Positions 8,098 to 22,969 of a stretch of DNA of 64,000 bases are shown piece after piece. A program made the position numbers and the translations under genes. The stretch covers positions 1 through 64,000 of the forward strand of contig JAKATN010000002.1 in assembly GCA_021818715.1 (NCBI GenBank), given 5' to 3'. Positions within the stretch are counted from its first letter, which is position 1. Every line of letters starts with the position of its first letter. This DNA is from Thermoplasmata archaeon. Lineage in GTDB: Archaea > Thermoplasmatota > Thermoplasmata > Thermoplasmatales > Thermoplasmataceae. The notes beneath the pieces are model-generated. The model did no database searches. It was not told where the DNA came from and saw only the letters and a list, made by a program, of their open reading frames with translations.

Positions 8098-8260
8098 TAT
8101 TTTTGTCCCATTTTGTCCCAAATGCCGTTTAAATATAGAATGTACATAAAGCACTGAATCAGGTGGAACCTGTTTTTCAGGGCAAGCCAATGAGGATTAT
8201 TACCCTGAGTCATATTATAGAATATAAACTTGAAATAATATTTGTTAATAAGGAGAAAAA

Positions 8261-8311
8261 ATGAAGGATTCAAGAAGCGGACTTGTAATCCACGCCGAAA
8301 ATAGCGGGTGA
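8261..8311 (+). CDS. Possible 16-codon leader ORF before mtnB
   Basis: ATG 8261 follows AGGAG with good spacing (8251-8255). The frame MKDSRSGLVIHAENSG ends at TGA 8309-8311, which overlaps the first possible mtnB start (GTG 8308). A TATA-like GTTTAAATATAG lies near 8127-8140. It could couple translation of mtnB to an upstream ribosome. It contains no run of methionine codons, so it is not an obvious attenuator. It may also be chance. Confidence 0.3.
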   Translation: MKDSRSGLVIHAENSG

Positions 8312-8322
8312 TAAATGAACAT

Positions 8323-8988
8323 ATGACGAGGGCCAAACTAACATTGGAGGAACAGGAACACACCAGTCGGGGTAAATTTAAAGAATTGTCTAGAAAAATA
8401 GTCGATACAAGCAGCGCCTTCTACAGGAGAGGTTGGCTTTATGCAACGAGCGGAAACCTGAGCGCAGTTGCTGAAGAGACCCCTTTCAGATTGGCTATCA
8501 CGGCATCTGGAGTTGACAAAGGCAGCCTTACGGCCTCCCATGTCATTGGAATAGACGAATACGGGGCAATCCTCGATGGGCAATTCAGGCCTTCCAGTGA
8601 AACGCTAATCCACCTTATGATCGTAAAGAAACTTGGTGCAAAATCTGTTATGCACACCCACTCAATCTGGGGCACTCTTCTTTCCGAAAAGTTCTCAGGA
8701 AATGGTGGGATTGAAATCAGTGGGTATGAGATGTTAAAGGGGCTCCGCGGAGTCGGGTCCCATCAAAATTCCGAGTGGATACCCATTCTGGAGAACTCAC
8801 AGGACATGAAGCAAATATGCACTGAACTTGCAGGTGTATTTTCCAGAAATCCAGGCATCCATGGATTCTTGCTGAGGGGTCATGGCCTTTACACCTGGGG
8901 TGATTCTATTGAAGATGCAAAGAGGCACGTAGAAGCCCTGGAATTTCTGCTTGAAGTGTACGGTCGTCTTAAATTAGTTGCAACCTGA
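8323..8988 (+). CDS. mtnB: Methylthioribulose-1-phosphate dehydratase MtnB
   Basis: About 221 residues with the class II aldolase fold. The zinc site is HTHSIWG plus the distal HGLYTWG, the catalytic glutamate is in SSETLIHLMI, and the phosphate-binding segments are SGNLS and TASGVDKG. These are the features that mark the MtnB branch rather than fuculose aldolase. The enzyme removes water from methylthioribulose-1-phosphate in methionine salvage. GGGTGA lies before ATG 8323; GTG 8308 is an alternative start. It is the first gene of a run mtnB-mtnD-mtnC, and the chemistry fits consecutive steps of the pathway. Confidence 0.9.
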   Translation: MTRAKLTLEEQEHTSRGKFKELSRKIVDTSSAFYRRGWLYATSGNLSAVAEETPFRLAITASGVDKGSLTASHVIGIDEYGAILDGQFRPSSETLIHLMIVKKLGAKSVMHTHSIWGTLLSEKFSGNGGIEISGYEMLKGLRGVGSHQNSEWIPILENSQDMKQICTELAGVFSRNPGIHGFLLRGHGLYTWGDSIEDAKRHVEALEFLLEVYGRLKLVAT

Positions 8989-9026
8989 GACAGATACGAT
9001 AAAAACAACCAAAAAATGGTGAAAAA

Positions 9027-9584
9027 ATGGTAGTAGTGAGAGTAGAGGGAATGGCAGATCCGATAATTGATAGCTCAAAGGCAGGGGAATATCTTGCCTC
9101 GATTGGCATTGACTACGAACGCTGGGACACTTCCCATCCCCTGCCTGAAGACGCAGGAGAAGCTCAGATATTGGATGCATACCGATCGGAAATCGAAAGG
9201 CTGAAGGAGAAAGGCGGGTACCTGACCGCAGACCTCATCAATCTAAGTGAAAAAACTCCTGGATTAGATGAAATGCTGTCTAAATTCAACAAGGAGCACT
9301 GGCATGACGAAGACGAGGTCAGATTCACCATTTCCGGACATGGCGTATTTCACATCAATACCGGAAACCACAGGATCACCTCAATCGAGGTAAGCAGGGG
9401 AGATCTGATACGGATCCCCAGCCGGACTTATCATTGGTTCGACCTCTGTGAAGATCGTGAGATCAGGGCAATAAGGCTTTTCCAGAACAGGACCGGATGG
9501 ACTCCATACTACACAGGAAGCGGTGAGGACCTGAAGCAACAGCCTTTATGTATGGGCCCGGCCTACTTTCCCCTACGATCATAG
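9027..9584 (+). CDS. mtnD: Acireductone dioxygenase MtnD
   Basis: A 185-residue cupin. The metal ligands lie in KEHWHDEDEVRF (His, His, Glu) and the distal His is in RTYHWFDL, matching the acireductone dioxygenase signature H-x-H-x4-E...H. The enzyme splits the acireductone with oxygen: the Fe form yields the keto acid precursor of methionine, while a Ni form would yield an off-pathway product. It starts at ATG 9027, 38 bases after mtnB, and its 3' end overlaps mtnC by 37 bases in another frame. Dependence on oxygen fits an aerobic organism. Confidence 0.93.
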   Translation: MVVVRVEGMADPIIDSSKAGEYLASIGIDYERWDTSHPLPEDAGEAQILDAYRSEIERLKEKGGYLTADLINLSEKTPGLDEMLSKFNKEHWHDEDEVRFTISGHGVFHINTGNHRITSIEVSRGDLIRIPSRTYHWFDLCEDREIRAIRLFQNRTGWTPYYTGSGEDLKQQPLCMGPAYFPLRS

Positions 9585-10312
9585 ATTCTGGAACATTCAG
9601 ACTAATTGAAGGATCGGCCAGTACGATACTCCTTGACATAGAAGGTACAACAGTGCCAATGGAATTTGTTCATGGTACGCTTTTCAAATATGCAGAGGAG
9701 AGGGTACAGGATTTCATCAATAGGAGGGGAAATGAGGAAGAAGTCCAGCAATGTCTGTCCTCACTGGAATCGGAAATGAGAAGGGCTGTAAACGCGGGTC
9801 TGGAGAACGAGGAGGATATTGGAAAAGCGTCGATTGCACAATATGCCAGGAAGCTGATGGAAAATGACAGCAAGTTTTCCGCGCTCAAGGCTCTGCAGGG
9901 CTTAATTTGGGAGGAGGGTTACGCGGACAGTGGGCTCAAAAGCGAAGTCTATCCGGATGTTCCAGTGGCCCTGAAAAAATGGAAATCAGCGGGGAAAGAA
10001 GTATACATATATTCATCAGGCAGTGCGCTTGGCCAGAAACTGCTGTTCTCCCACACTGCATACGGGGACCTCACGAAATTAATATCTGGTTTTTTTGACA
10101 CCACGGTTGGAATGAAACGGGACGCCGGAAGCTATGTAAACATCGCCAGGCAACAGAAGATTGAACCGGCCAGAATACTGTTTTTCTCGGACGTAGTGGA
10201 GGAGCTCGGTGCTGCAGCCAGCGCAGGAATGAAGGTTATACTGGTGGACCGAACTGCAGGCTTCCGGGAAAGGAAGACACGGTATCCAGTGATACACGCA
10301 TTCATGCAGTGA
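9548..10312 (+). CDS. mtnC: Enolase-phosphatase MtnC
   Basis: A HAD-superfamily enzyme of about 254 residues. Motif I is LLDIEGTTVPMEF, in which D-x-E-G-T-T marks the bifunctional enolase-phosphatase of methionine salvage. Motif II is YIYSSGSALGQKLLF and motif III is FFSDVVEELGAAASAGM. It enolises and dephosphorylates diketomethylthiopentyl phosphate to the acireductone, the substrate of the gene before it. The only clear start upstream of motif I is ATG 9548, which overlaps mtnD by 37 bases. The roughly 25 residues before motif I are longer than needed, so a non-standard start further down is possible. Confidence 0.92.
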   Translation: MYGPGLLSPTIIDSGTFRLIEGSASTILLDIEGTTVPMEFVHGTLFKYAEERVQDFINRRGNEEEVQQCLSSLESEMRRAVNAGLENEEDIGKASIAQYARKLMENDSKFSALKALQGLIWEEGYADSGLKSEVYPDVPVALKKWKSAGKEVYIYSSGSALGQKLLFSHTAYGDLTKLISGFFDTTVGMKRDAGSYVNIARQQKIEPARILFFSDVVEELGAAASAGMKVILVDRTAGFRERKTRYPVIHAFMQ

Positions 10313-10323
10313 TGCTGGCGAAA

Positions 10324-11532
10324 TCACACACTTGCGGACGCAAGTGATCTCGACTGCATTATTGCCACAGAGAGGACTATAAGCCCTGCTGCCATAATTA
10401 AAAAAGCGGTCCCGGGAAATGACACCGACATTATGGCCCCGGCAAGCACACCGGCAATAGAGTTAAAAGAGGTTCCAAAAGTATCAAAGATCCCCTGGAC
10501 AGTACCCATTTTCTCCTTTTCCGTATATCTGAAAAGTAACGCAGTTGTCAATGGAGACACGAGCCCGGAGAATATTCCAAGCACGAAAAACACAATAAGC
10601 AGGGTGGAAAAGCCAGGCAGCGCCCAAGCCACTACAAGGACCAATCCTTCAGCAAGGAAGTAGAACGCGAGCTTTTCCCTCACATCATTCACCTCCTTCC
10701 TTGCAGCCATGTAAAAAGATCCGATCATCCCCCCAGAAGAAATTGCGAAGAAGGTGAAGCTGAGGAATGCCGGACCGAGGAAAAACACACTGTTGATCAT
10801 CACTGTCGAAACCGAGTCGGTCATCCCAAGGAACAGGGCTGAGAAGGCAGATATGGCAACTACGCTGAGCACAACTCTGGTGCGCCTGACATAATTAAGG
10901 CCATCTGCCATAATAGTTCCCAAACCTGGAGGCTCAGACATTCCAGAGATGCGAGGCATCAGCAGGATTGGAACAAGCGATACCGCATACAGCAGGAATA
11001 CAACCAGGACGGCATTCGCAACGCTTGAGGCTACCAGAATGCCGGACGCAAGGTAGCCTGCCAGCCTGGACGCCTTTGTTGCCACTCCCGCAGCAGACCA
11101 CCCCTTCACGTACTTTCTTTCCGGGAGAAACCGCTGTCCCCAGATTGCCCTTACAGGGATAAGGAGATCGATTGAGAAGCCAAAGAGCAGCGCAGAGGCG
11201 AAGAGCGAAATCACTGACTGGTAGGAATACCCGCCGAGGTATATCGGGAGAAGAAGAAGGGGCGACACCGCCTTCATCAGGGTTCCAGCTACTGCAGGTG
11301 TCCGTTTCCTGCCTGATCTGTCGACGTAGGCGCCAATGACTGCACTGGCGAGCATCGGCGCGGTCATCAACCCGGCAGTGACGCCAGTAACAAGGGGGGA
11401 AGAGGTGTACGAGATTGCCATCCATAGGATTAGCACCGTGAAAATTGAAGTGGCCAGGGTTGAAATGCTGATTTCTGAGATGACAAGCGAGAAATTCGCC
11501 CGCGATTTCACCGCATCCGGGTCGTTCAACAT
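10324..11532 (-). CDS. MFS transporter (drug/metabolite efflux type)
   Basis: A 402-residue membrane protein with about 12 predicted spans. The loop between spans 2 and 3 reads GAYVDRSGRKRT, the MFS 'GxxxDRxGRR' signature, and the two halves are joined by a central soluble loop (LGTIMADGLNYVRRTRV). It resembles the MFS group that includes macrolide exporters and enterobactin exporter EntS. No substrate can be read from the sequence. It starts 12 bases after the stop of the pyruvate-kinase-C-like gene, so the two are one operon, and it converges on mtnC. Confidence 0.85.
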   Translation of the reverse strand: MLNDPDAVKSRANFSLVISEISISTLATSIFTVLILWMAISYTSSPLVTGVTAGLMTAPMLASAVIGAYVDRSGRKRTPAVAGTLMKAVSPLLLLPIYLGGYSYQSVISLFASALLFGFSIDLLIPVRAIWGQRFLPERKYVKGWSAAGVATKASRLAGYLASGILVASSVANAVLVVFLLYAVSLVPILLMPRISGMSEPPGLGTIMADGLNYVRRTRVVLSVVAISAFSALFLGMTDSVSTVMINSVFFLGPAFLSFTFFAISSGGMIGSFYMAARKEVNDVREKLAFYFLAEGLVLVVAWALPGFSTLLIVFFVLGIFSGLVSPLTTALLFRYTEKEKMGTVQGIFDTFGTSFNSIAGVLAGAIMSVSFPGTAFLIMAAGLIVLSVAIMQSRSLASASV

Positions 11533-11544
11533 ACTCTCATTTGA

Positions 11545-12249
11545 TTAAGCCAAATAATACTGATCGATGTCGCCCTTCCAGCTGGAATCGGAATAGGGTA
11601 TCTCTGAACGTACATTATAACGGGGCTTTGCGATTATCTCCCTAATCTCGAACTCATCGAAAAATCCCTTGCTGTTGGCTGCTCGAACCACAAGCGCTGT
11701 ATCGAGACCCTTGAACGTGCCACCGAACGCAATGACCTCTTCTCCAGGATTCACCTTGCCTGCTTCTGTTGCAATGACTGCCGCCTCCACCGCGACTTTT
11801 GTGCCTGATCCAAGCAACTCCAGAGTATAGTCCACCGCCTCCGCCATGCCATTCCAGGTCCACTCAACCCTGGGGGGAGATACGGTAATACGGGCCCCCT
11901 GAACAACTTCTACTCCTGCGCTCTCGATTTGCTTCATTGTCCTCTCATACTCGCTCCTGTTAATTCCAATAGGAATGTCTCCCTTGGGCCCGCATGAGAA
12001 ATCGGGAGAGTGTGTTACGGCAACAATCCTGCAGCCCGATCCCTGGAAGATGGATATCGCCTTCAGTATGCTCCTTCCAGTTTCCGAAGCTATCACCGCT
12101 TTCCCTATACTCCTTTCGAGAAGGCGTCTTCTTGCGAGTTCCAGTACTTTTGATGTATTGGTTTCGCCGGCATACCCAAAATACGCCACCTCGCTCAGGA
12201 AGTCTTCCCGTGACTCCCCTGACCCCTTATCGTCACCTGCCGCTGACAT
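11545..12249 (-). CDS. Pyruvate kinase C-terminal-domain-like protein
   Basis: A 234-residue soluble protein. The stretch KAVIASETGRSILKAISIFQ and the later TEAGKVNPGEEVIAFGGTFKGLDTALVVRAA match the alpha/beta domain found at the C-terminus of pyruvate kinase and in stand-alone archaeal proteins of the COG1751 type. The catalytic barrel is absent, so it is not a pyruvate kinase. In that family the domain binds allosteric effectors. What it binds here, and why it is paired with an exporter, is unknown. Confidence 0.65.
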   Translation of the reverse strand: MSAAGDDKGSGESREDFLSEVAYFGYAGETNTSKVLELARRRLLERSIGKAVIASETGRSILKAISIFQGSGCRIVAVTHSPDFSCGPKGDIPIGINRSEYERTMKQIESAGVEVVQGARITVSPPRVEWTWNGMAEAVDYTLELLGSGTKVAVEAAVIATEAGKVNPGEEVIAFGGTFKGLDTALVVRAANSKGFFDEFEIREIIAKPRYNVRSEIPYSDSSWKGDIDQYYLA

Positions 12250-12540
12250 ATGGCATCATATCCGAAATTGTAATTGAAAAGCGCATAATAGCTTTAGTCA
12301 GCTTATCCAATACCGTGGATGAAACCGTTCTTAATGATCTCTCATGATAATCACCACTCATTTCTCTCAAGCACCGGGCGAACCCCCTTTCGCAAGCAGC
12401 TATATCACCACCAGATCACTCTTTGAAATAACGGGTGTTTGCAATCGCCCGGTACAAACTGCAAAGGGCAGGACAGGCATCCTGTGAACTGGCCTGCAGT
12501 GGTTGCAAATGGAATATATATTGGTGCGGACTCCTTATAC

Positions 12541-13620
12541 ATGGTTGCCGGAGATATTTTCAAGGGAATGGAGAACATAAACAAGATCCTAATCAGGAAT
12601 GGCGGAGAAAACGCAATCGACAAGACATTTTTCTATCTTTCAGGCATCGAAGCAGGCCTTTTCGAGGGTTCTTCACTGGTTTTTACCAGAGATTCGCAGA
12701 AACTGTTTGTTTACCCGCTTGAGGAGGAACTTGCAAAACAGTCCGGGCACGAGATAGTTGTTGCAAATTCCTTGTCCGAGATGAAGGAAAAGGTTGCAAA
12801 GGAACTCTCCATGGAAAGTGAGGTTGGAGTTAACCTCTCCTCCCTTACGGTGGAAATGTTTGAAAGCGTAAAGAGTGAAAATCCCAAGCTGAGGTTCAGA
12901 GATGTCTCCTCCAACATTTCAGAAGCCAGGATGCAGAAATCCACAGACGAAATAAAGAGGCTGAGGGAAGCCGCCCGCATAAGCGGAGAGGTATACCAGG
13001 CAGTTCTTGACTCCCTGAAGGAAGGGATGCAGGAAACCGAGGTCGCCGCGATGCTGGTATACAGGATGATGTCCGAAGGTGCATCCGGCCCTGCATTCGG
13101 CACCATCGTGGGTTTCGGTGAGAACTCAGCCATCCCCCACTACTCTGCGGGCAGGAGGAAGCTGAAGAAGGGCGATTTTGTTCTGACTGATTATGGGGCA
13201 CAGTACAGGAGGTATTGTGCGGATACTACCAGAACTGCCGTGTTCGGCAGAGCAACAGAAGAGCAGAAGGAAATCTACAGCATAGTGCATGAGGCCCAGG
13301 CAAGGAGCATGGAGCTCATAAAGGCTGGAGTGAACGGGAGGATCGTGAACCAGAAGGCGCTTGACATTATCGACTCCACCAGATACAGGGGAAAAATGAT
13401 GCATGGCCTTGGCCATGGCATCGGCCTGGAAGTGCACGACCACAGTGCACTTGGAAAGGCAGACAGGGAACTGAAGGAGAATATGGTAATAACCGACGAG
13501 CCGGGCATTTACGTTGCCGGATTCGGCGGAGTAAGGATCGAGGATGACGTTCTCGTAAAGAGGGATGGATACGAAAGAATAACGCACAAACCCCCTTCTG
13601 ATCTGATTGAAGTCCGATGA
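12541..13620 (+). CDS. M24-family metallopeptidase, Xaa-Pro dipeptidase/aminopeptidase type
   Basis: The C-terminal pita-bread domain has the full set of metal ligands: Asp in LTDYGAQY, Asp in CADTTRT, His in HGLGHGIGLEVHD, Glu in ITDEPGIYV and Glu in GVRIEDDVLV. The N-terminal creatinase-like domain spans roughly the first 130 residues. The reading frame runs back to 12439, but AATATATATT at 12511-12520 is a good TATA box about 25 bases before ATG 12541, so I place a leaderless start there; ATG 12568 is also possible. The enzyme would release an N-terminal residue before proline in the cytosol, finishing protein breakdown. Confidence 0.88.
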   Translation: MVAGDIFKGMENINKILIRNGGENAIDKTFFYLSGIEAGLFEGSSLVFTRDSQKLFVYPLEEELAKQSGHEIVVANSLSEMKEKVAKELSMESEVGVNLSSLTVEMFESVKSENPKLRFRDVSSNISEARMQKSTDEIKRLREAARISGEVYQAVLDSLKEGMQETEVAAMLVYRMMSEGASGPAFGTIVGFGENSAIPHYSAGRRKLKKGDFVLTDYGAQYRRYCADTTRTAVFGRATEEQKEIYSIVHEAQARSMELIKAGVNGRIVNQKALDIIDSTRYRGKMMHGLGHGIGLEVHDHSALGKADRELKENMVITDEPGIYVAGFGGVRIEDDVLVKRDGYERITHKPPSDLIEVR

Positions 13621-13625
13621 TACAG

Positions 13626-13637
13626 AAATATATTTAG
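13626..13637 (+). promoter_or_regulatory. TATA box of the chrB-like gene
   Basis: AAATATATTTAG lies about 28 bases before ATG 13659. The distance implies a leaderless transcript. Confidence 0.5.
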
Positions 13638-13658
13638 GGTTGTGCGGTTCAGATCAAT

Positions 13659-14126
13659 ATGAAGTGGGTTACTAGGGAAAAGGCAAAAGTGGACAGGATT
13701 GCCTGCCCCTGGATTATAAGCAGATTTGTCGACAGTAAAGCTGAATTCTTCTTTGTACCAAAGAATCAGGTGCTGGACTTTGCAAGGGAAAACAACGCTA
13801 TCCCGTTTGATACACCGGGAGCAGAACTCATGCACTTCGAAGAAAACGGCTACGAATACGTCAGCTTCGATGCGGTTATCCGTAAATACGGCCTGAAAGA
13901 TCCGGCGTTGCTGGAACTCGCAAATATAGTGAGATCTGCTGACGCTGAGCCTCCAGATGCAAAGCCGGAAGGAGCAGGACTGGAAGCAGCAGCTCTAGGG
14001 TTCAGAAGGATCGCAAAGAGCGACCATGAAAATATGAAACTCCAGTTCCCTCTATACGATGCCCTTTATGAATACTGTAAATGGAAACTCGAAGAAGGGG
14101 GAAAGTTGGAGCACTCGCCTGCATAG
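13659..14126 (+). CDS. ChrB-type chromate resistance domain protein
   Basis: A 155-residue protein beginning KWVTREKAKVDRIACPWIIS, followed by RFVDSKAEFFFVP and TPGAELMHFEENG, all characteristic of the C-terminal domain of ChrB. In bacteria the full ChrB has an additional N-terminal half and regulates or supports the chromate exporter ChrA. This protein is the C-terminal domain alone and no chrA is near. The conserved Cys in IACPW and the neighbouring acidic residues may bind metal. Its role in chromate resistance is therefore only a family-based suggestion. Confidence 0.8.
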   Translation: MKWVTREKAKVDRIACPWIISRFVDSKAEFFFVPKNQVLDFARENNAIPFDTPGAELMHFEENGYEYVSFDAVIRKYGLKDPALLELANIVRSADAEPPDAKPEGAGLEAAALGFRRIAKSDHENMKLQFPLYDALYEYCKWKLEEGGKLEHSPA

Positions 14127-14231: not shown

Positions 14232-14831
14232 TCAGGTTACCGTTATGCGACCATACATCCCGTTCTGCGCATGGCCCGAATATGTACAGAGATACCAGTA
14301 AGTTCCTGCTGAACTGAAACTGTAACTAATGTTCATGTAGGCGTAGTGATCAGCCCCGGCCGGAGGAAGATACGGCATCATTGACATGTAACCATATCCG
14401 TTTTCGTAGCCGTTCATCATACCCATCTCGTCCATATAATATGAATACGGGGGGCCGGAGTTGCTCAGCACGAAGTTATGATAAGCATCGGAGTCAACAT
14501 TTACAACTGTAAACTGAACCGTAACTCCAGATTGCATCACAATGTTCGGGTTTACTATCCCGAAGATCTCAAAACTGTACATGCTCCCGGAATTCATCGG
14601 CCCCATCATTACGGGCAAGTCTGCAGAACTATTCACATAAATCGTGGAAGTTGCCTGTGAAACGGTTACTCCTGCTCCTGTCACATTAATCGAGCTCAAT
14701 TCGGATTGATTCAGGTAGTTTATTCCAGAATGGTTGTCATAACTTTCGCTCAATATCTGTGTTCCCGTTAGCACAAGTACAGTTGCTAGGATAATTAAGG
14801 AAAGGAGGCCGAATACTTTATATCTGTTCAT
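14232..14831 (-). CDS. Sulfocyanin/rusticyanin-like blue copper protein, membrane-anchored
   Basis: About 199 residues. An N-terminal hydrophobic segment (VFGLLSLIILATVLVLTG) anchors or exports it. A cupredoxin domain then shows the four type 1 copper ligands: His118 in DAYHNFVL, Cys182, His187 and Met192 in C-TYSG-H-AQNG-M. A methionine- and glycine-rich insert precedes the last strand. Such proteins carry electrons to terminal oxidases on the outer face of the membrane in acidophilic archaea. ATG 14831 is chosen because AGGTG from the end of the previous gene sits six bases before it; GTG 14840 would abut the stop. Confidence 0.87.
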   Translation of the reverse strand: MNRYKVFGLLSLIILATVLVLTGTQILSESYDNHSGINYLNQSELSSINVTGAGVTVSQATSTIYVNSSADLPVMMGPMNSGSMYSFEIFGIVNPNIVMQSGVTVQFTVVNVDSDAYHNFVLSNSGPPYSYYMDEMGMMNGYENGYGYMSMMPYLPPAGADHYAYMNISYSFSSAGTYWYLCTYSGHAQNGMYGRITVT

Positions 14832-14840
14832 GCCAGCCAC

Positions 14841-15197
14841 CTACTTCCTCAATATAGTTACCATTCTCTGGTATTCCCCTTCTGTGATTTCTCCCCTCGC
14901 CAGTCTTGCTTTGGCAATCTCCTCTGCACCATTTAGATAAGGCGCATATTGCCCTTCTCTGTGGGTTCCGCTCGCGGAGAACATGTAATACAGAAAAATC
15001 AAGAAGAAGACCACGGCGACGACTCCTATTAATGGCATTGCTATTCCTGGTCCCCCCATCATGTAGTAGCCATTGTTGACATAGTTTCCACCATTATAGC
15101 CTCCGCCGGAATACATTGAAAATATTACGGCTGCAGCAATGACAATTGCTATAAAACCCACAAGAACCCACAACAGATTCCCTATCTTTTTGTCCAT
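14841..15197 (-). CDS. Small two-span membrane protein with SHOCT domain
   Basis: A 118-residue protein with a first membrane span (LLWVLVGFIAIVIAAAVIF), a Gly/Tyr/Asn-rich external loop, and a second span (PLIGVVAVVFFLIFLYYMF). Its C-terminal tail, GAEEIAKARLARGEITEGEY, is the SHOCT oligomerisation motif. It is the first gene of an operon with the blue copper protein, whose start overlaps its end. The promoter has a TATA box at 15219-15229 and palindromes further upstream. It may scaffold the copper protein or the oxidase; this is inferred from position only. Confidence 0.75.
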   Translation of the reverse strand: MDKKIGNLLWVLVGFIAIVIAAAVIFSMYSGGGYNGGNYVNNGYYMMGGPGIAMPLIGVVAVVFFLIFLYYMFSASGTHREGQYAPYLNGAEEIAKARLARGEITEGEYQRMVTILRK

Positions 15198-15459: not shown

Positions 15460-15801
15460 TCATATCTGCGGTAAATAAGCAAAGCCGCTTGCGAAAAACC
15501 TTCCACCCTTGGTAAAACGGATAGTGACCGTTTCCCTTCCTCTGTCGATAGAACTGTAGATCACTTTGTCCATAAAAAGGGACAGGCTCTTCAGCTTTAC
15601 CTCTGTAAAATGCGATGGAACATCGCCGCTTCTCTCGCTCACCTTCAATTTCTTGATTACCTGGCAGGATTCATCCTTGCATGGGCCTGCAACGCTTATC
15701 AGACTCAGGACGAAGGATTTGTCGTAGATTTCCTGCAGAAAGGGACCCACCATTCGTATTTTCCCTTTCCCTATTACTATTTCAATCTCCTGTTTTGTCA
15801 T
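15460..15801 (-). CDS. Hypothetical protein downstream of copA
   Basis: A 113-residue soluble protein with no recognised family. It has a short CKDESC motif near residues 41-46 that could bind a metal, a basic middle and a strand-rich C-terminal part (RETVTIRFTKGGRFFASGF). It begins 42 bases after the stop of the Cu(I) ATPase on the same strand and is probably the last gene of that operon. A metal-related role is suggested only by this position and the cysteine pair. The bases between it and 15219 hold no other gene. Confidence 0.5.
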   Translation of the reverse strand: MTKQEIEIVIGKGKIRMVGPFLQEIYDKSFVLSLISVAGPCKDESCQVIKKLKVSERSGDVPSHFTEVKLKSLSLFMDKVIYSSIDRGRETVTIRFTKGGRFFASGFAYLPQI

Positions 15802-15842: not shown

Positions 15843-17936
15843 TTAATTACCGGTTTTCGCCTCCTTGCCGTCATAAGATTCCGCTGCTCTATTTAGCAAA
15901 CGCCGGATCTTGCCGTCAAGCAAAAGAGAGTTGATTACAACCGAAGATGAGCTCATTCCCATTGCAAAAGCTGCAAGGATAGGCAGGAATGAGTATATCG
16001 AGAGGCCGAACAGCGGGACCAGGATCCCGCCTGCTACAGGGATTAACGCGGTATTGTAGCCAAAGGCCCAGCCAATGTTCTGCTTTATTTTCCCAATAGT
16101 CTTATCGCCGATGATCTTGGAATAGACAACATGGCTAAGATCGTTGTTCAGCAATATTATGTCCCCGCTTTCCCTCGCAATATCAGTGCCTGAAGCCATC
16201 GCTATACCGACATCCGCAGTTTCAAGTGCAACAGTGTCGTTTATTCCGTCTCCAGTGTAAATCACATAATCGCCAGCAGACTGATACTGCTTTATTATCT
16301 CAGACTTGTCGGCGGGCAGGACCTCAGCATGGATGTCACTAATTCCCAGTTCCCTTCCGATTCTTCTGCCTTCCTCCAGGGAATCACCTGTGATCATCGC
16401 AGTCTTCACGCCCAGGAGTCCAAGCGCGTTTATTGCAGGTAACGCACTGTCCCTGATCTTGTATGAAAGCGACAGACTTCCCGCTAAAATATTGTCCAGA
16501 TTAATTGAAACTGAGGACCCACCCTCTTTTTTTGCTCTAGATACCCGGACCGCAACGTCTTTGACTCTGCCCTTTATTCCCACTCCAGGGATCTCCTCCA
16601 CATCGCGTACATCTGCCAGGGGTATGTTTCTTCCCGCAGCGAATGAAACTATGGCCTTTGCAATTGGATGGTTGGAGGAGGATTCAACTGATGCAGCCAT
16701 TGCAATAACGTCTGCTTCATCATATCCCGGCATTATTGATACCGAAGTAACTATGGGATCGGGTTCTGTAAGCGTGCCGGTCTTATCAAAGACCGCCCGG
16801 TTCGCCTTGGAGAGTCTGTCCAGAGCGCTGGCGTTCTTTACAAGTATGCCATTTTCTGATGAAACGTTTGAGGAAATAAGCAGTGTAATTGGACCTGCAA
16901 GACCTATTGCACAAGGGCAAGCAATCACAACAACCGAAACGAACACAAGCACTGCGATTTCAACTGAGAGCGCACTTCCGATGCTTGACAGGTAGAAATA
17001 CCAGAACAAAGAAGCTGCAATGGCGGCTGTAATCACCAGCGGAACAAAAACGGATGAAAACACATCGGCGATTCTCTGAACCTTTACGCGACCGGAGATC
17101 GCCTTCTGTATCAACTCGTATATCTGGTTCACAGTGCTGTCTTTCCCGGTTCTTGTCACATTGATCCTCAGAATGCCATTCAGGTTTACAGTTCCCGAGG
17201 AGACTTCGCTGGGCGAGACCTTCAATACCGGTTCCTGTTCCCCGGTGAGCGATGATTCGTCCACTTCACTTTTGCCATCGTATACAACCCCGTCAACAGA
17301 TATGACTTCACCTGGTTTTATCAGGATCTTATCTCCCGGGGCTATCTCATCTGTCCTTTTGTCTATTATCTCCCCGTCCGACGTTATAAAATGGGTCACA
17401 TTAGGGATCATTCCGATTAGTTTGCTGGCGGCTTTGTTTGCCCTAACCTTAGTGATGTTTTCAATGAAATTTCCTGTCAGGATAAGAGTTATGATGAAAA
17501 CTGACGCATCAAAGTAAACCTCTGATGCAGGAATGGTAATACTCGGGAAAAATGTTACATACGCAGAAAAGACAAATGCTGTCAGTGTACCCATGGTGAC
17601 AAGAAGATCCATGTTCGCGCTCCTGGTCTTCAGAGAATGATATGCCCCCTCGTAGAACCCATATCCGGAATAAAATTGTACAGGAAGCGCGATCGTCAAA
17701 AGGAGATAATCTCTGTAAACCACAGAGGGCGATACCAGGTACGAGATCAAAAGGACGGTTATGGCAAGCGGCCAGGCAACAATCAATCTTCTCTTTAACC
17801 CCGTCTCCTCTTTCTCTGGTGATGCGTACTTTTGCTGGCATGTCTTGGAGCAAAAATAATATCTTTGACCGTCAACGTCTGCATAGAGGTCGGAAGTCTC
17901 CGGAACGAACATTCCGCAGACGGGATCTGTGGGCAA
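15843..17936 (-). CDS. copA: P1B-1 Cu(I)-exporting ATPase with N-terminal YHS/TRASH domain
   Basis: A 697-residue P-type ATPase. Residues 1-45 form a YHS/TRASH metal-binding unit (DPVCGM...YYFCSKTCQQKY) in place of the usual HMA domain. Cu(I) selectivity is shown by CPC in IACPCAIGLA, Y-N in GYNTALIPVAGG and M-S-x-S in MGMSSSSVVINS. The catalytic set is complete: SLTGEQEPV, the phosphorylated Asp in DKTGTLTEP, the SSNHPIAKA nucleotide site, TGDS and GDGINDTVA. It pumps Cu(I) out of the cytosol. The 46-residue YHS protein lies 11 bases upstream and the hypothetical protein downstream, so the three form an operon. Confidence 0.93.
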   Translation of the reverse strand: MPTDPVCGMFVPETSDLYADVDGQRYYFCSKTCQQKYASPEKEETGLKRRLIVAWPLAITVLLISYLVSPSVVYRDYLLLTIALPVQFYSGYGFYEGAYHSLKTRSANMDLLVTMGTLTAFVFSAYVTFFPSITIPASEVYFDASVFIITLILTGNFIENITKVRANKAASKLIGMIPNVTHFITSDGEIIDKRTDEIAPGDKILIKPGEVISVDGVVYDGKSEVDESSLTGEQEPVLKVSPSEVSSGTVNLNGILRINVTRTGKDSTVNQIYELIQKAISGRVKVQRIADVFSSVFVPLVITAAIAASLFWYFYLSSIGSALSVEIAVLVFVSVVVIACPCAIGLAGPITLLISSNVSSENGILVKNASALDRLSKANRAVFDKTGTLTEPDPIVTSVSIMPGYDEADVIAMAASVESSSNHPIAKAIVSFAAGRNIPLADVRDVEEIPGVGIKGRVKDVAVRVSRAKKEGGSSVSINLDNILAGSLSLSYKIRDSALPAINALGLLGVKTAMITGDSLEEGRRIGRELGISDIHAEVLPADKSEIIKQYQSAGDYVIYTGDGINDTVALETADVGIAMASGTDIARESGDIILLNNDLSHVVYSKIIGDKTIGKIKQNIGWAFGYNTALIPVAGGILVPLFGLSIYSFLPILAAFAMGMSSSSVVINSLLLDGKIRRLLNRAAESYDGKEAKTGN

Positions 17937-17947
17937 TTGTGCTACCT

Positions 17948-18088
17948 TTATCTGCTGTGTTTTAATGGGTTCTTGTCAAATTCAGTTTTGCATGCGCTGC
18001 TGCAAAAATAGAACGACTTTCCCTGAAACTCGCTCCTGTACTGCGTATCTTCCTTCACTTTCATCCCGCAAATCGGATCTTTAGCCAT
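17948..18088 (-). CDS. 46-residue YHS/TRASH metal-binding protein (CopT/CopZ-like)
   Basis: This short gene reads MAKDPICGMKVKED, then FYFCSSACKTEFDKNP and ends at TAA 17948-17950. The Cys in PICGM and the pair C-x3-C match the TRASH zinc/copper site. It is closely similar to the first 45 residues of the ATPase that follows 11 bases later, so one is probably a duplicate of the other. Small TRASH proteins next to copper ATPases are known in Sulfolobales (CopT) as copper-handling partners. A TATA-like TTATTTAAC lies 21-29 bases before the start, implying a leaderless message. Confidence 0.85.
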   Translation of the reverse strand: MAKDPICGMKVKEDTQYRSEFQGKSFYFCSSACKTEFDKNPLKHSR

Positions 18089-18094
18089 AATGAC

Positions 18095-18123
18095 AACATT
18101 TCCCAATTGTTATTTAACATTTC
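18095..18123 (-). promoter_or_regulatory. Promoter of the copper operon with spaced direct repeats
   Basis: AACATTTC occurs at 18095-18102 and 18116-18123, 21 bases apart (two helical turns), on either side of the TATA-like TTATTTAAC. This geometry suits a metal regulator controlling TBP access. Binding by the CopR-like protein encoded at 21580 is a guess. Confidence 0.35.
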
Positions 18124-18149
18124 TTATACACAATGTATCAGTTTTGATA

Positions 18150-18330
18150 AGTTATTTAACATTACCAAAAAACATCACTGAATTTGAGCATAGAATGTTC
18201 ATTATTCTTCAGAAAAATTCAAGTAAACAATTCTTGCACGCAGAATACGTTATCACACAATTTTTATGCCGATCTGAGTGTGAAGCCCAGTACCTGACTG
18301 CAGATCAAAAACTACCATTGGAAACGCGTT
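18150..18330 (+). pseudogene. Possible remnant of an AsnC-type copper regulator
   Basis: The frame here reads KNITEFEHRMFIILQKNSSK, which lines up with KNLTDLEQRMIALLKSNSRR at the N-terminus of the CopR-like regulator encoded at 21580-22116, with ten or so identities over 24 residues. After this the similarity fades and no TRASH domain follows before the stop at 18357-18359. It lies divergent to the live copper ATPase operon, exactly where a regulator gene would be expected. The match is short, so this call is tentative. Confidence 0.35.
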
Positions 18331-18421
18331 TTCAAACATCTAACCGGGGTGACTGCTGAATTTGCACGGGTTGCGGGCCAGGAACCTGCAACTGTTATTT
18401 ATTGGAACACGCTTATCCTTT

Positions 18422-18868
18422 GTGTACAACTTACCCAGCCTTGCTACCCTTGGTTGGCTTATATTGGTTTTCTTTGTATTGTGGGTTGTTATCTCCCTCC
18501 CCATTTACATTGCATCAAGGGTAATGGTTTCAAGGAGGAAGGCTACCCTGGGAAGGGCTATAATCACCACTTTTATCGCGATCATAGCATTCATATTACT
18601 AGCCTCCATCTTTGGGCTCATATTCCCATTTCTTGGACTCCTGATGGGCTTTCTGGGGATACTAGCCGTCTTGAGGGTAATGTACGACATTGGCTGGGTT
18701 TACGCCTTCGTTATGGCAATAGTGGCCTTCATCTTCATAATCGTGATCTCTACAATACTGGCCCTGTTAGGACTCGCCTTGTTTTCATTCAACGCTGCTG
18801 CCCATTTTCCGTCAACCGTTGCGTCTGTTTTGGCACTCACTAATTTTCAATATCCTGGGGGGCCATAA
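18422..18868 (+). CDS. Four-span membrane protein of unknown function
   Basis: About 148 residues, nearly all hydrophobic, with four likely membrane spans separated by a short basic loop (ASRVMVSRRKATLGRA). No family is recognised. GTG 18422 is chosen because TGTTATTTATTGG, a TATA-like stretch, ends about 20 bases before it; the frame also opens at TTG 18362. The gene ends five bases before isopentenyl phosphate kinase on the same strand and so is probably the promoter-proximal gene of the isoprenoid operon. A link to lipid synthesis rests on position only. Confidence 0.6.
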   Translation: MYNLPSLATLGWLILVFFVLWVVISLPIYIASRVMVSRRKATLGRAIITTFIAIIAFILLASIFGLIFPFLGLLMGFLGILAVLRVMYDIGWVYAFVMAIVAFIFIIVISTILALLGLALFSFNAAAHFPSTVASVLALTNFQYPGGP

Positions 18869-18873
18869 CTTTA

Positions 18874-19617
18874 ATGGATAGACCGGTAAATCTCATTAAG
18901 ATGGGAGGAAGCATCATAACGCGGAAAAACAGTTACAGGTATTTTCGCAGTCAAGTTGCCTCAAAAATAATAAAAGAAATTATGGAGATAGACGGAGAAA
19001 AGATCATCGTCCACGGAGGGGGGTCTTTTGGGCACATTAAATCACTCGAATATGGTATCCCCGGAGAAATTACGCCAAAGCGACTCGCCGGAGCTTCACT
19101 TGTTCACAGCGACATGCTTGAACTTTCCAGCCGCATAGCCGGACTGTTCGCCTCGCTGGGAGAGAAACCGTATATCTTCTCGACTTCATCGCTTTTCAGA
19201 CAGGGCGAGATGGATTATGCAGAGCCAGTTTCGTACCTGAGAAAAGGGCTGATCCCCCTGCTCTTTGGAGATACTTACATAAGCGGAAACAGGGTATTGA
19301 TATACTCAGGAGACAGGATTATGCTTGACCTCTCCAGGCAAATCAAACCATCAAAGGTAATATTCTTTAGCGATGTTGACGGCGTGTTCACCGACGATCC
19401 CAAAGAAAATCCCGAAGCCAAACTTCTCCAAAGGATAAAAGGAACAGCGGGAATTAACGCGACTGGAAAAGATGCAACGGGAGGAATGAAACTGAAACTG
19501 GAAACCATGGTTGAGGTGAAAAGATATTCTAAGGAGGTTTACATTATTAACGGAAGGTTCCCGGAAAGGATCAGGGAAACGGATAGTGCGGATTTCAAAG
19601 GTACAGTGATTGAATGA
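18874..19617 (+). CDS. ipk: Isopentenyl phosphate kinase
   Basis: A 247-residue member of the amino acid kinase family. The phosphate-binding loops are IKMGGSIITRK and HGGGSFGH, whose final His54 is the catalytic residue that separates this enzyme from other kinases of the fold. The nucleotide region is FFSDVDGVFTDDP and DATGGMKLKLE. It makes isopentenyl diphosphate from isopentenyl phosphate and ATP, the last kinase step of the archaeal mevalonate routes, including the Thermoplasma variant via mevalonate 3-phosphate. It overlaps the next gene, IPP isomerase, by four bases (ATGA), so product and next enzyme are co-translated. Confidence 0.93.
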   Translation: MDRPVNLIKMGGSIITRKNSYRYFRSQVASKIIKEIMEIDGEKIIVHGGGSFGHIKSLEYGIPGEITPKRLAGASLVHSDMLELSSRIAGLFASLGEKPYIFSTSSLFRQGEMDYAEPVSYLRKGLIPLLFGDTYISGNRVLIYSGDRIMLDLSRQIKPSKVIFFSDVDGVFTDDPKENPEAKLLQRIKGTAGINATGKDATGGMKLKLETMVEVKRYSKEVYIINGRFPERIRETDSADFKGTVIE

Positions 19618-20663
19618 TTGAACAGAGAAAGGAAGAACACATAAGGATCGCAGAGAATGAAAGGGTGATCTCGGAGCACAATTTCTGGGATGACATTCAG
19701 TTTGTCCATTATGCTCTTCCTGAAATCGACTTTGAGCAGATCGACTGCTCAATAAACCTGCTCTCTGCCAAGCTTGACTATCCGATAATCATATCATCCA
19801 TGACCGGAGGAACCCAGCTTGCCAAGAAGATCAACAGGAACCTTGCAGCCGCAGCAGAAAAATTGCACCTAGCAATGGGAGTGGGCAGCATGAGGGCTGC
19901 AATCGAGAAACCTGAACTCTCGGACACATTTTCGGTTATCTCGGAATTCAAGATCCCATTTAAGCTGGCCAACATAGGTGCGCCGCAGCTTATAAACCAG
20001 TCGAAGAATGCCTTCGGATCTGGTGAGATCGAGAAGGCAATAACCATGATTGAAGCGGATGCGCTTTACATACACCTTAACTTCCTTCAGGAAATGATAC
20101 AGCCTGAAGGAGACAGAAGAGCAAAGGGGATACTGAAAAGGATTTCCGAAATCGCGTCAAGTTTTCCCGTAATTGTAAAGGAAACTGGCAACGGAATATC
20201 TAGGGAAATCGCACTTGAGCTGAAGGACGCAGGAGTCAAGGGAATAGACGTTGGTGGATTAGGGGGAACCTCCTTCGCAGCGATAGAATATTACCGGGCA
20301 AAGATAATCAACGACGAGGAAAAAATGAACTCCGGTAACACTTTCTGGAACTGGGGTATACCCTCACCTGCATCAATAGTATATTGCCAGGTTGGTCTTC
20401 CTGTAATAGGAAGTGGAGGATTGAGAAACGGTCTTGATCTTGCGAGAGCGATCTCTATGGGTGCAGTGGCAGGGGGGTTTGCCAGGACACTTCTCAAAAA
20501 TGCGGACGATTCAGAGGACTCTGTAGTAAAGAACTTATCATTGATAATAAGGGATCTAAAGATCGCAATGTTTCTAACCAGGAGCAAGACCGTAAATGAT
20601 CTAAAGAAGGCCAGGAAAGTGATCGTAGACCCCCTCAAGCCATGGATTGATTTGCATGCCTGA
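19614..20663 (+). CDS. fni: Type 2 isopentenyl-diphosphate delta-isomerase
   Basis: A 349-residue FMN-dependent enzyme. Conserved blocks include ISSMTGGT, AMGVGSMRAAIE, ANIGAPQL, LYIHLNFLQEMIQPEGDR, VKETGNGIS, IDVGGLGGTSFAAIE and VIGSGGLRNGLDLARAI, all as expected for the TIM-barrel type 2 isomerase. It interconverts isopentenyl and dimethylallyl diphosphate for ether-lipid synthesis. The length is normal for the family. It starts inside the kinase stop codon, and its end overlaps the ZPR1 gene by eight bases. Confidence 0.95.
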   Translation: MIEQRKEEHIRIAENERVISEHNFWDDIQFVHYALPEIDFEQIDCSINLLSAKLDYPIIISSMTGGTQLAKKINRNLAAAAEKLHLAMGVGSMRAAIEKPELSDTFSVISEFKIPFKLANIGAPQLINQSKNAFGSGEIEKAITMIEADALYIHLNFLQEMIQPEGDRRAKGILKRISEIASSFPVIVKETGNGISREIALELKDAGVKGIDVGGLGGTSFAAIEYYRAKIINDEEKMNSGNTFWNWGIPSPASIVYCQVGLPVIGSGGLRNGLDLARAISMGAVAGGFARTLLKNADDSEDSVVKNLSLIIRDLKIAMFLTRSKTVNDLKKARKVIVDPLKPWIDLHA

Positions 20664-21186
20664 TTCTGGAAGGGAATACAGGGAACCCGATGAAATACCC
20701 ACTAACGTGGAATGCCCTGCTTGTGGCTCCAGCCTTTACATGATCATTTTTGAAACGGAAATACCGTCAGAGGGTCACATCATGATACAGACCTATTCAT
20801 GTCACAAGTGCCTCTTCAGGAAATCCAGCGTGTTTCCAAGCGAGCCTGGGAAGCACACGAGGTTGTCCCTGAAAGTCAAGGATAAATCTGCCCTGAACAC
20901 CATGCTTTACCGCTCTCAGAGCGCTTTCGTCTATATCCCGGAACTGGGAGCAGAGATCTCACCTGGTGAGAAATCAACAGGGTACATAACCACGGTGGAA
21001 GGGATACTGCACAGGTTGCAGGAATACATAGATCTCATGCCATACGACGACGAAGATGAATTCCTAAGGGTAAAGAAGGCTTTAGAAAAAGCAGAAGAAG
21101 GTGCCCTCCCTTTCACCCTAATAATTGACGATGAAACCGGCAAAAGCAGCATTTCCAGCACAGACACGGTCACGGAATACGAATGA
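20656..21186 (+). CDS. ZPR1 zinc-finger domain protein
   Basis: About 176 residues. The four-cysteine finger reads CPACGSSL, then CHKCLFRKSSV about 30 residues later. The ZPR1 beta-domain follows (SEPGKHTRLSLKVKDKSAL, then VYIPELGAEISPG and YITTVEGILHRL). Archaeal members have this single-domain form, while the eukaryotic protein has two copies and binds translation factor eEF1A. ATG 20656 is preferred over 20647 because it is followed directly by the conserved acidic start. Its position at the end of the isoprenoid operon does not explain its function. Confidence 0.8.
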   Translation: MPDSGREYREPDEIPTNVECPACGSSLYMIIFETEIPSEGHIMIQTYSCHKCLFRKSSVFPSEPGKHTRLSLKVKDKSALNTMLYRSQSAFVYIPELGAEISPGEKSTGYITTVEGILHRLQEYIDLMPYDDEDEFLRVKKALEKAEEGALPFTLIIDDETGKSSISSTDTVTEYE

Positions 21187-21235
21187 GCCTATTTCCCGGG
21201 CATCTCGGCACTTCAGCCCATTCCACCTGGAATCG

Positions 21236-21561
21236 TTGCACAGTGCGGATAGTCTGCTTCGTGTCCTGAGACTCAAGGCATTGATAGTTACCGGCGACTC
21301 TGCAGAAGAAGATCACAGGGTTCCAGCACAGGTTGTAATTGACGATATTCATGTGGAAGTACCCACTGATGCCAAACAGAGACAGTTAAGGAGCATCATG
21401 AGAATGGCGATTTTGTTGTTCTCGTCGGGGATAGGATCAACTATATGATCGCAATTGAACTGCAGGTGTCAGTATTGAACCGGATCCTTCTTAACAGGCC
21501 GAGGATCAAAAAGCCAACCGATGAGGTGCGAAGCCTCGAGCCTGCGCAACTGGCTCCTTAA
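21236..21561 (+). pseudogene. Remnant of a P-type metal ATPase
   Basis: The frame at 21236-21385 reads LRLKALIVTGDSAEED and VIDDIHVEVPTDAKQRQL. This corresponds to the segment LGVKTAMITGDSLEEG ... ISDIHAEVLPADKSEII of the live CopA. After a frame change near 21395 the sequence continues HENGDFVVLVGDRINYM and AIELQVSVLN, matching GDGINDTVALETADVG, with the second Gly and the Asp of the motif replaced. The N-terminal two thirds are gone. It ends at the stop at 21559-21561, convergent to the CopR-like gene. Confidence 0.65.
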
Positions 21562-21579
21562 TCAACTATTTCTCATCTC

Positions 21580-22116
21580 TCAAGCGTGCTCCCCGTGCCC
21601 TTCCATTATCTCCCGTCTCTTCCTCAGATCACGCTCGCAGTTTGAGCAACAGACGTAGAATACCTTTCTGTGCATTTGCAATTTGATGGGTTTCTCAACT
21701 ATATCCTTTCCGCAGTAGTCGCATTTCATGTGCTCCATTCTCATGCAATCTTCGTTAATGTTCCGTCTTACGGCAATCTTCACATCAAGAACCTGCATGT
21801 TCTGTACCTTGATCAGGTTCTCGTAGTACATGACCGCCAAATAAGTGCCATCGATCAGGGAGAAATACTCGAGGATCAGATCCTTCGGCAATCCTTCAAC
21901 CTCTTTCAGGTGTACCAGCACCAGGTCTCTCTCATCTTCTGCGAGCATGATGGTAAATCTTTTTATTACACCCTGCTCAGAAAGAGAGGACAAGATTTTC
22001 TTTGCCGTAATCCTGCTAATCTCAAGTTCCCTAGAGAGATCAAGCACGGTTCTTCGCGAATTACTTTTCAGAAGCGCAATCATCCGTTGTTCCAAATCTG
22101 TAAGATTTTTTGACAT
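21580..22116 (-). CDS. CopR-type regulator: AsnC-like HTH plus TRASH domain
   Basis: About 178 residues. The N-terminal winged helix (LTDLEQRMIALLKSNSRRTVLDLSRELEISRITAKKILSSL) is of the Lrp/AsnC type. A central ligand-binding-like region follows, and the C-terminus is a TRASH metal site (CDYCGK ... VFYVCCSNCERDL). This domain order is that of the copper-responsive CopR/CopT regulators of Sulfolobales. CAATATATACA at 22136-22146 is a TATA box 20-30 bases before ATG 22116, so the message is leaderless. It is divergent from a DoxX-like gene and convergent with a dead P-type ATPase; the live ATPase lies 4 kb away. Confidence 0.85.
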   Translation of the reverse strand: MSKNLTDLEQRMIALLKSNSRRTVLDLSRELEISRITAKKILSSLSEQGVIKRFTIMLAEDERDLVLVHLKEVEGLPKDLILEYFSLIDGTYLAVMYYENLIKVQNMQVLDVKIAVRRNINEDCMRMEHMKCDYCGKDIVEKPIKLQMHRKVFYVCCSNCERDLRKRREIMEGHGEHA

Positions 22117-22199
22117 GATGGGCAATTGAATCTGTCAATATATACATTCAGTATAACTTATCATTATGAATATTCCAGTAATTCAATACAAGGGATGGA

Positions 22200-22751
22200 A
22201 TGATCAAAATGGTCTCAAATGGGTCGGACAAGAACTGGTTTGCCAGGAACTCCAACATATACCGGTTGGGTCTAACTCTGTCGTTCGGAGTTATCTGGCT
22301 CATTGATGCGGTGCTCAAGTGGATGCCGAGTTTTATCGACGGTTTTAGCGGGTACCTGCAATCTGCGATGACCGGGCAGCCGAACTGGATAATGGGATGG
22401 TACAACTTCTGGATAAATGCCACGGCATATAATCCTGCAGCTTTTGCGTACATGGTAGCCGTGATCGAGACGCTACTTGCAGTTGCAATCATCTTTGGAA
22501 TTGCAAGAAAGACTGCCTACTTAGGGGGCCTGCTGTTTACCCTGTTCATCTGGTCTGTGCCTGATGGATTTGGTGCCTTCTGGATGACAGGCTCAACGGA
22601 TGTTGGTGCGAGCATAATATATGTAATTCTGTTCCTGGCTCTCCTGCTGGTGGATGGCATACTTGGTCCCAGCAGGTACAGCATAGATCACCTTATTGAA
22701 AAGAAGCATAAAGCCTGGGCCCGGCTGGCAGAAGTCAACCCACAATTTTGA
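22200..22751 (+). CDS. DoxX/DoxD-like membrane protein
   Basis: A 183-residue protein with four likely membrane spans: residues about 22-42, 80-100, 107-127 and 133-153. The pattern RLGLTLSFGVIWLIDAVLKWMPSF, a long outer loop with WYNFWINATAYNP, and VIETLLAVAIIFGIARKTAYLGGLL fits the DoxX/DoxD superfamily, which includes the membrane subunit of thiosulfate:quinone oxidoreductase in acidophilic archaea. No DoxA partner is nearby. It is divergent from the CopR-like regulator with 83 bases between the starts, so the regulator may control it. Confidence 0.7.
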   Translation: MIKMVSNGSDKNWFARNSNIYRLGLTLSFGVIWLIDAVLKWMPSFIDGFSGYLQSAMTGQPNWIMGWYNFWINATAYNPAAFAYMVAVIETLLAVAIIFGIARKTAYLGGLLFTLFIWSVPDGFGAFWMTGSTDVGASIIYVILFLALLLVDGILGPSRYSIDHLIEKKHKAWARLAEVNPQF

Positions 22752-22969
22752 AACAGAGTCAATCAGACAAATTTGGATCGTTCTAGCGAGCCAAACAATC
22801 TTTTAAGATCTATTATTTTTCCTGGCGAACCGGAAAAGCGCACCAAACTTCCCTGCGGGTAAAAGACGGTCTTCATGATCCTGTCGCAAGGAAGCCTATG
22901 ATGATTTATCACGAGACAGGGAGAAGCAGCAAACCTGGCGATGACATAACTGTTGAATACAAGTGAAAA

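Follow-up and report, generated by a model that had tools for sequence, protein, structure and literature searches.

Archaeal cop clusters, described in Ferroplasma, Saccharolobus and Pyrococcus, combine a CopR, CopT or CopY regulator with a CopA or CopB ATPase and, optionally, with CopZ or CopM (PMC7830388). The locus described here, which lies in a 64,000-nucleotide stretch of DNA (the window), resembles these clusters in its gene families, in its TRASH-domain regulator, in its divergent ancestral layout and in a palindromic site with a CA-WWW-TG core upstream of the ATPase operon. In spite of these similarities, it differs from them in two respects: (i) the regulator and the ATPase come from two diverged units, with isoprenoid genes between them; and (ii) each unit holds the relic of its lost partner. 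The host, an acid-loving archaeon of the Thermoplasmatales, once had two gene sets for copper export, each of which is now short of a different gene, and the pump from one set has no switch gene except that from the other. The features of the locus are the following (coordinates in the window, strand, nature of the feature):

15843-17936, minus strand: copA of unit I, an intact open frame for a Cu(I) P-type ATPase of 697 aa with an N-terminal YHS domain
about 17949-18089, minus strand: copZ of unit I, intact, read from the translation as a YHS/TRASH-type metallochaperone of 46 aa
18125-18139: predicted CopR operator at the promoter of copZ-copA (minus-strand sequence GATACATTGTGTATA), the best matrix hit in the window
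18154-18340, plus strand: remains of unit I's divergent copR, start codon gone and frame broken, solid to 18236
18362-21186, plus strand: mem18362, IPK, IDI2 and ZPR1, between the two cop units, intact and syntenic in the relatives G001 and G003
21256-21477, plus strand: copA relic (part of the P-domain), assigned to unit II and convergent with the live copR
21580-22125, minus strand: copR of unit II, intact, with a winged HTH and a TRASH domain (Arc_trans_TRASH)
22141-22155: second predicted CopR operator, TATACATTCAGTATA, in the gap that separates copR from the DoxD-like gene, the third-best matrix hit
22200-22751, plus strand: gene for a DoxX/DoxD-like membrane protein, divergent from copR (DoxX E=0.002, below the cut-off)
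22808-22969, plus strand: relic of a second ZPR1 gene, marking the outer border of the unit II insertion, before h22970

An earlier, sequence-only reading of the window had proposed an intact Cu(I) ATPase with a YHS partner, and both are present over 15843-18089. The ATPase scores 471 bits with the copper-translocating model TIGR01511 (cut-off 397), its translation contains the Cu(I) signature motifs CPC (in the membrane), DKTGT, GDGIND and MxxSS, and the solved structures nearest to it are those of CopA; with its profile score above the cut-off and both CPC and DKTGT in place, it is a P1B-1 Cu(I) ATPase. It is 74-75% identical to the CopA of four relatives (G003, G034, G062 and G098), and CopZ is 87% identical to that of G003 and 85% to that of G001. 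The differences between the copA genes of the window and G003 amount to 141, 96 and 436 at the first, second and third codon positions, and are thus mostly at the third; only such counts are given because dS is saturated. The same reading had seen a possible regulator remnant at 18150-18330 and had named the lack of significant similarity in this segment as a result that would overturn it. The similarity to copR is significant: 18154-18236 aligns with codons 1 to about 28 of the copR gene of G003 (80% over 86 bp, E=3e-14), with a score of 43 where the maximum among 300 shuffles was 17, while the stretch from 18237 to about 18340 shows only suggestive homology. Two small deletions break the frame of this relic. 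This alignment is unbroken from copA through copZ and the promoter into the copR relic (15919-18236 of the window against locus L036).

The regulator of unit II, also recognised as intact and CopR-like by the sequence-only reading and now extended to 21580-22125, has the arrangement that defines an archaeal CopR, an N-terminal winged HTH followed by a C-terminal TRASH domain (Arc_trans_TRASH 60.8 bits, cut-off 27; HTH_24 24.0 bits, cut-off 21.9). As for the AsnC-type label that had been given to the regulator remnant, HTH_24 is above its cut-off and the Pfam AsnC-type HTH model below. The live CopR is about 55% identical to the unit I regulator of the congener, and its gene differs from that of G001 at 51, 36 and 104 first, second and third codon positions. 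Next to it, 21256-21477 matches the CopA genes of many relatives, the best match being that of G001 (66% over 179 columns, E=2e-13 in DNA; protein E=6e-16), and none of 100 shuffles reached its score. The P-type ATPase remnant had been drawn wider, from 21236 to 21561; the tail from 21478 to 21561 is unsupported, its score being reached by 25 of 300 shuffles. We infer that this relic belongs to unit II; its columns are too few for tree placement, and the clade tests do not choose between a G001-type and another CopA.

Both relics are short and frame-broken, and a Pfam search recovered neither of them (18154-18340 and 21256-21477), as would be expected if they were chance resemblances or an assembly artefact, and the genes a rearranged single cop cluster. 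That explanation is extremely improbable: the DNA alignments have E values of 1e-13 to 1e-14 and scores that no shuffle reaches, the relics have the correct position and orientation relative to the intact units of relatives, and the flanking genes follow the relatives' order on one 152-kb contig. A chance or artefactual origin of the relics is in practice refuted by the alignments and the shuffles.

The comparison with relatives identifies both source units. CopR is divergent from (CopZ-)CopA in nearly all relatives that have both genes in the fetched stretch. This is the layout of unit I, CopR / CopZ-CopA, which is intact in the congener G003 on a contig apart from the isoprenoid locus; it is this divergent unit that both the CopA of the window and its copR relic match. 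Unit II is intact in G001, of the same genus, as CopZ-CopR-><-CopA between chrB and mem, a syntenic place; the copA relic and the live CopR of the window, read on the opposite strand, reproduce this convergent layout. An alignment scan turned up 33 loci, but no convergent CopR/CopA pair other than that of G001, nor was another seen among the fetched loci; a scan of the genome contigs with a single CopR as query gave no matches. The proposal that complementary halves were lost from two regulator-ATPase units therefore stands, and the supposed duplicates are indeed two distinct source units, although they are diverged lineages and not fresh tandem twins. Twin units had been expected in relatives: two or three cop units per genome occur in five (G014, G015, G032, G062 and G088), but in none of the 77 family genomes were units I and II found intact together. 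Unseen cop copies are possible, since the completeness of G001 is only 62% and that of the genome to which the window belongs 91%. In the window's own assembly (1.39 Mb), a genome search found one CopA, with no other close Cu ATPase, and its sole TRASH match was the live CopR. Here the regulator does not adjoin its ATPase: four genes separate the live copR from the live copA-copZ, over about 3.5 kb rather than the four kilobases first estimated, and the adjoining partner of each is a relic. With a single CopA, a single TRASH regulator and the isoprenoid genes between them, what would be the one working system is split around the isoprenoid operon, just as had been proposed.

The descent of the surviving pair agrees with two sources. 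In the CopR tree, the window groups with G001 at 98/95 support (95 with more sequences), with G089 next, whereas in the CopA tree it groups with G003, G013, G062, G082 and G098, and G001 is outside that set. A CopR tree constrained to the grouping seen for CopA is rejected for the window's protein (p-AU 0.0027); a constraint that unites the CopA proteins of the window and G001 costs 9.9 log units and is disfavoured, though formally not rejected (p-AU 0.096). Since the two trees disagree, the surviving CopA and CopR are most likely of mixed descent.

We consider it very likely that the locus results from reciprocal loss in two diverged cop units, of which unit I lost copR and unit II lost copA, so that a mixed set remains. 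The two units would once have flanked the mem-IPK-IDI2-ZPR1 genes. Unit I would have been a canonical divergent CopR / CopZ-CopA unit, its copR decaying to the relic seen today, and unit II a convergent CopR / CopA pair, to which the decayed copA is assigned; the one complete set left would comprise CopA and CopZ of unit I and CopR of unit II. Both units were probably inserted around the isoprenoid genes, since the chrB-mem-IPK-IDI2-ZPR1-h22970 locus of G003 is free of cop genes. A ZPR1 relic follows the DoxD-like gene (22808-22969); it matches the ZPR1 of G003 at 75% over 61 bp and also at the 3' end, and none of 500 shuffles did as well. The unit II insertion therefore lies between one intact ZPR1 and one dead one, which points to recombination at ZPR1 as its way in. 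The relic resembles the G003 gene more than it does the intact ZPR1 of the window. At the other side of the locus, 8164-14116 is 88% identical in DNA to G001, up to the stop codon of chrB, at which the cop genes start, and beyond it the identity is about 72%; this drop hints that a recombination boundary coincides with the site of insertion. Of the two cop relics, that of copA is the more eroded, so the ATPase may perhaps have been lost first.

A single complete unit could have led to an identical end state. In such a history of horizontal replacement, unit I was alone at first, a segment with the unit II CopR, an already truncated CopA and a DoxD-like gene then entered next to ZPR1, and decay of the resident copR followed, only one unit ever being complete in the lineage. 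The position of the insertion between an intact and a dead ZPR1, the location of unit II on opposite sides of the isoprenoid genes in G001 and in the window, and the greater erosion of the ATPase relic all speak for it. However, G001 carries unit II with an intact CopA beside the same genes, and a complete unit II was therefore present in the genus; we regard replacement as a possible but unlikely course of events.

Reciprocal loss also raises the question of how the surviving halves work together, on which the promoters bear. Among relatives, 16 CopR-bearing units have a similar palindrome, with the consensus AATACATTTTGTATA, at a fixed offset before copZ; in the remaining CopR-bearing units it is weaker, shifted or missing, and it is absent at the conserved offset in seven CopR-less units. 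A matrix built from the relatives' sites was ranked across the 64-kb window. Its best hit, 18125-18139, is at the conserved offset upstream of copZ, so that the likely operator falls just outside the promoter site that had been pointed to at 18095-18123; the predicted operator at copR, 22141-22155, has a weaker core. The pattern TATAC-N5-GTAT occurs in the window at these two places only, with 0.17 matches expected. Genome-wide, a scan with the exact pattern gave 9 matches against 13 for a reversed-pattern control; the arms alone are not specific at that scale, and the case for the operators therefore rests on position and conservation. In addition, the CA-WWW-TG core of the window's palindrome agrees with the ChIP-seq motif of the Pyrococcus furiosus CopR, TTNNCAWWWTGNNAA (PMC7830388).

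These sites also bear on whether the two losses were coupled at all. If they were not, copZ-copA would be constitutive or under another regulator, and the live CopR would control only the DoxD-like gene or other targets; CopA-CopZ is indeed found with no CopR detected in the genome in G005, G017, G023, G033, G082 and G083. Such uncoupled losses are improbable here: the palindrome is missing at the conserved offset in CopR-less units, yet the window's copZ-copA promoter keeps the best match in 64 kb, and the differences in both CopR and CopA are mainly at third positions. No CopR relics were found upstream of CopZ in the seven CopR-less units, a result of little weight, since the search did not pick up the relic in the window either.

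Returning to reciprocal loss, the unit II CopR would most likely sense Cu(I) through its TRASH domain, as characterised archaeal CopR proteins do. It would switch copZ-copA in trans through the predicted operator at 18125-18139, inherited from the lost regulator, and would act on its own promoter and the DoxD-like gene through that at 22141-22155. That the unit II CopR now controls the unit I CopA is probable, as there is a single Cu ATPase and a single TRASH regulator, and the palindrome survives at the ATPase promoter, where CopR-less relatives lack it, and is also present at the promoter of the live CopR. The DoxD-like gene, relatives of which adjoin copA in four genomes (G034, G062, G082 and G098), is a probable second target. 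We are evenly divided as to whether CopR has been permanently rewired into a small split copper regulon, in which it would act on copZ-copA in trans and the DoxD-like gene would have replaced copZ-copA opposite it.

Other genes accompany the window's copA: a rusticyanin gene (14232-14840; TIGR03095 182 bits, cut-off 147), a SHOCT-domain gene (14841-15197) and h15460 (15460-15801), homologues of all three being found beside the cop units of several relatives. The last encodes a conserved protein of 113 aa with no known Pfam family that recurs beside the family's cop units, and is a candidate cop-cluster gene.

Decay of single cop genes is seen elsewhere in the family: G032 has an intact CopR beside a stop-ridden, truncated CopA (L038, 3550-4760), and in G029 a broken CopR accompanies CopZ, next to which no CopA was found (L077, 7058-7739). 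In contrast to the window, a second unit with the complementary loss was not seen in either, and G032 keeps a further complete unit. CopR and CopA are also unlinked in G008, G026 and G091, for example, where a long distance separates them or they lie on different contigs; in the window they are about 3.5 kb apart. A literature search for cop pseudogenes in the Thermoplasmatales found nothing relevant. Since the loss of single cop genes recurs in the family, the locus is an instance of a known process: ordinary gene loss accounts for it, here in well-resolved form, and the system is not of a new kind. It stands out because the two losses complement each other and each source unit can be identified.

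The locus thus offers a natural experiment within one genus, in which both ancestral units are found intact and a cop-free version of the locus exists. It permits testing whether a diverged paralogue, about 55% identical to the unit I regulator of the congener, can take that regulator's place while the operator stays. For annotators, the lesson is that a copper operon may have its regulator elsewhere than next door, and that a lone copper ATPase is not necessarily unregulated.
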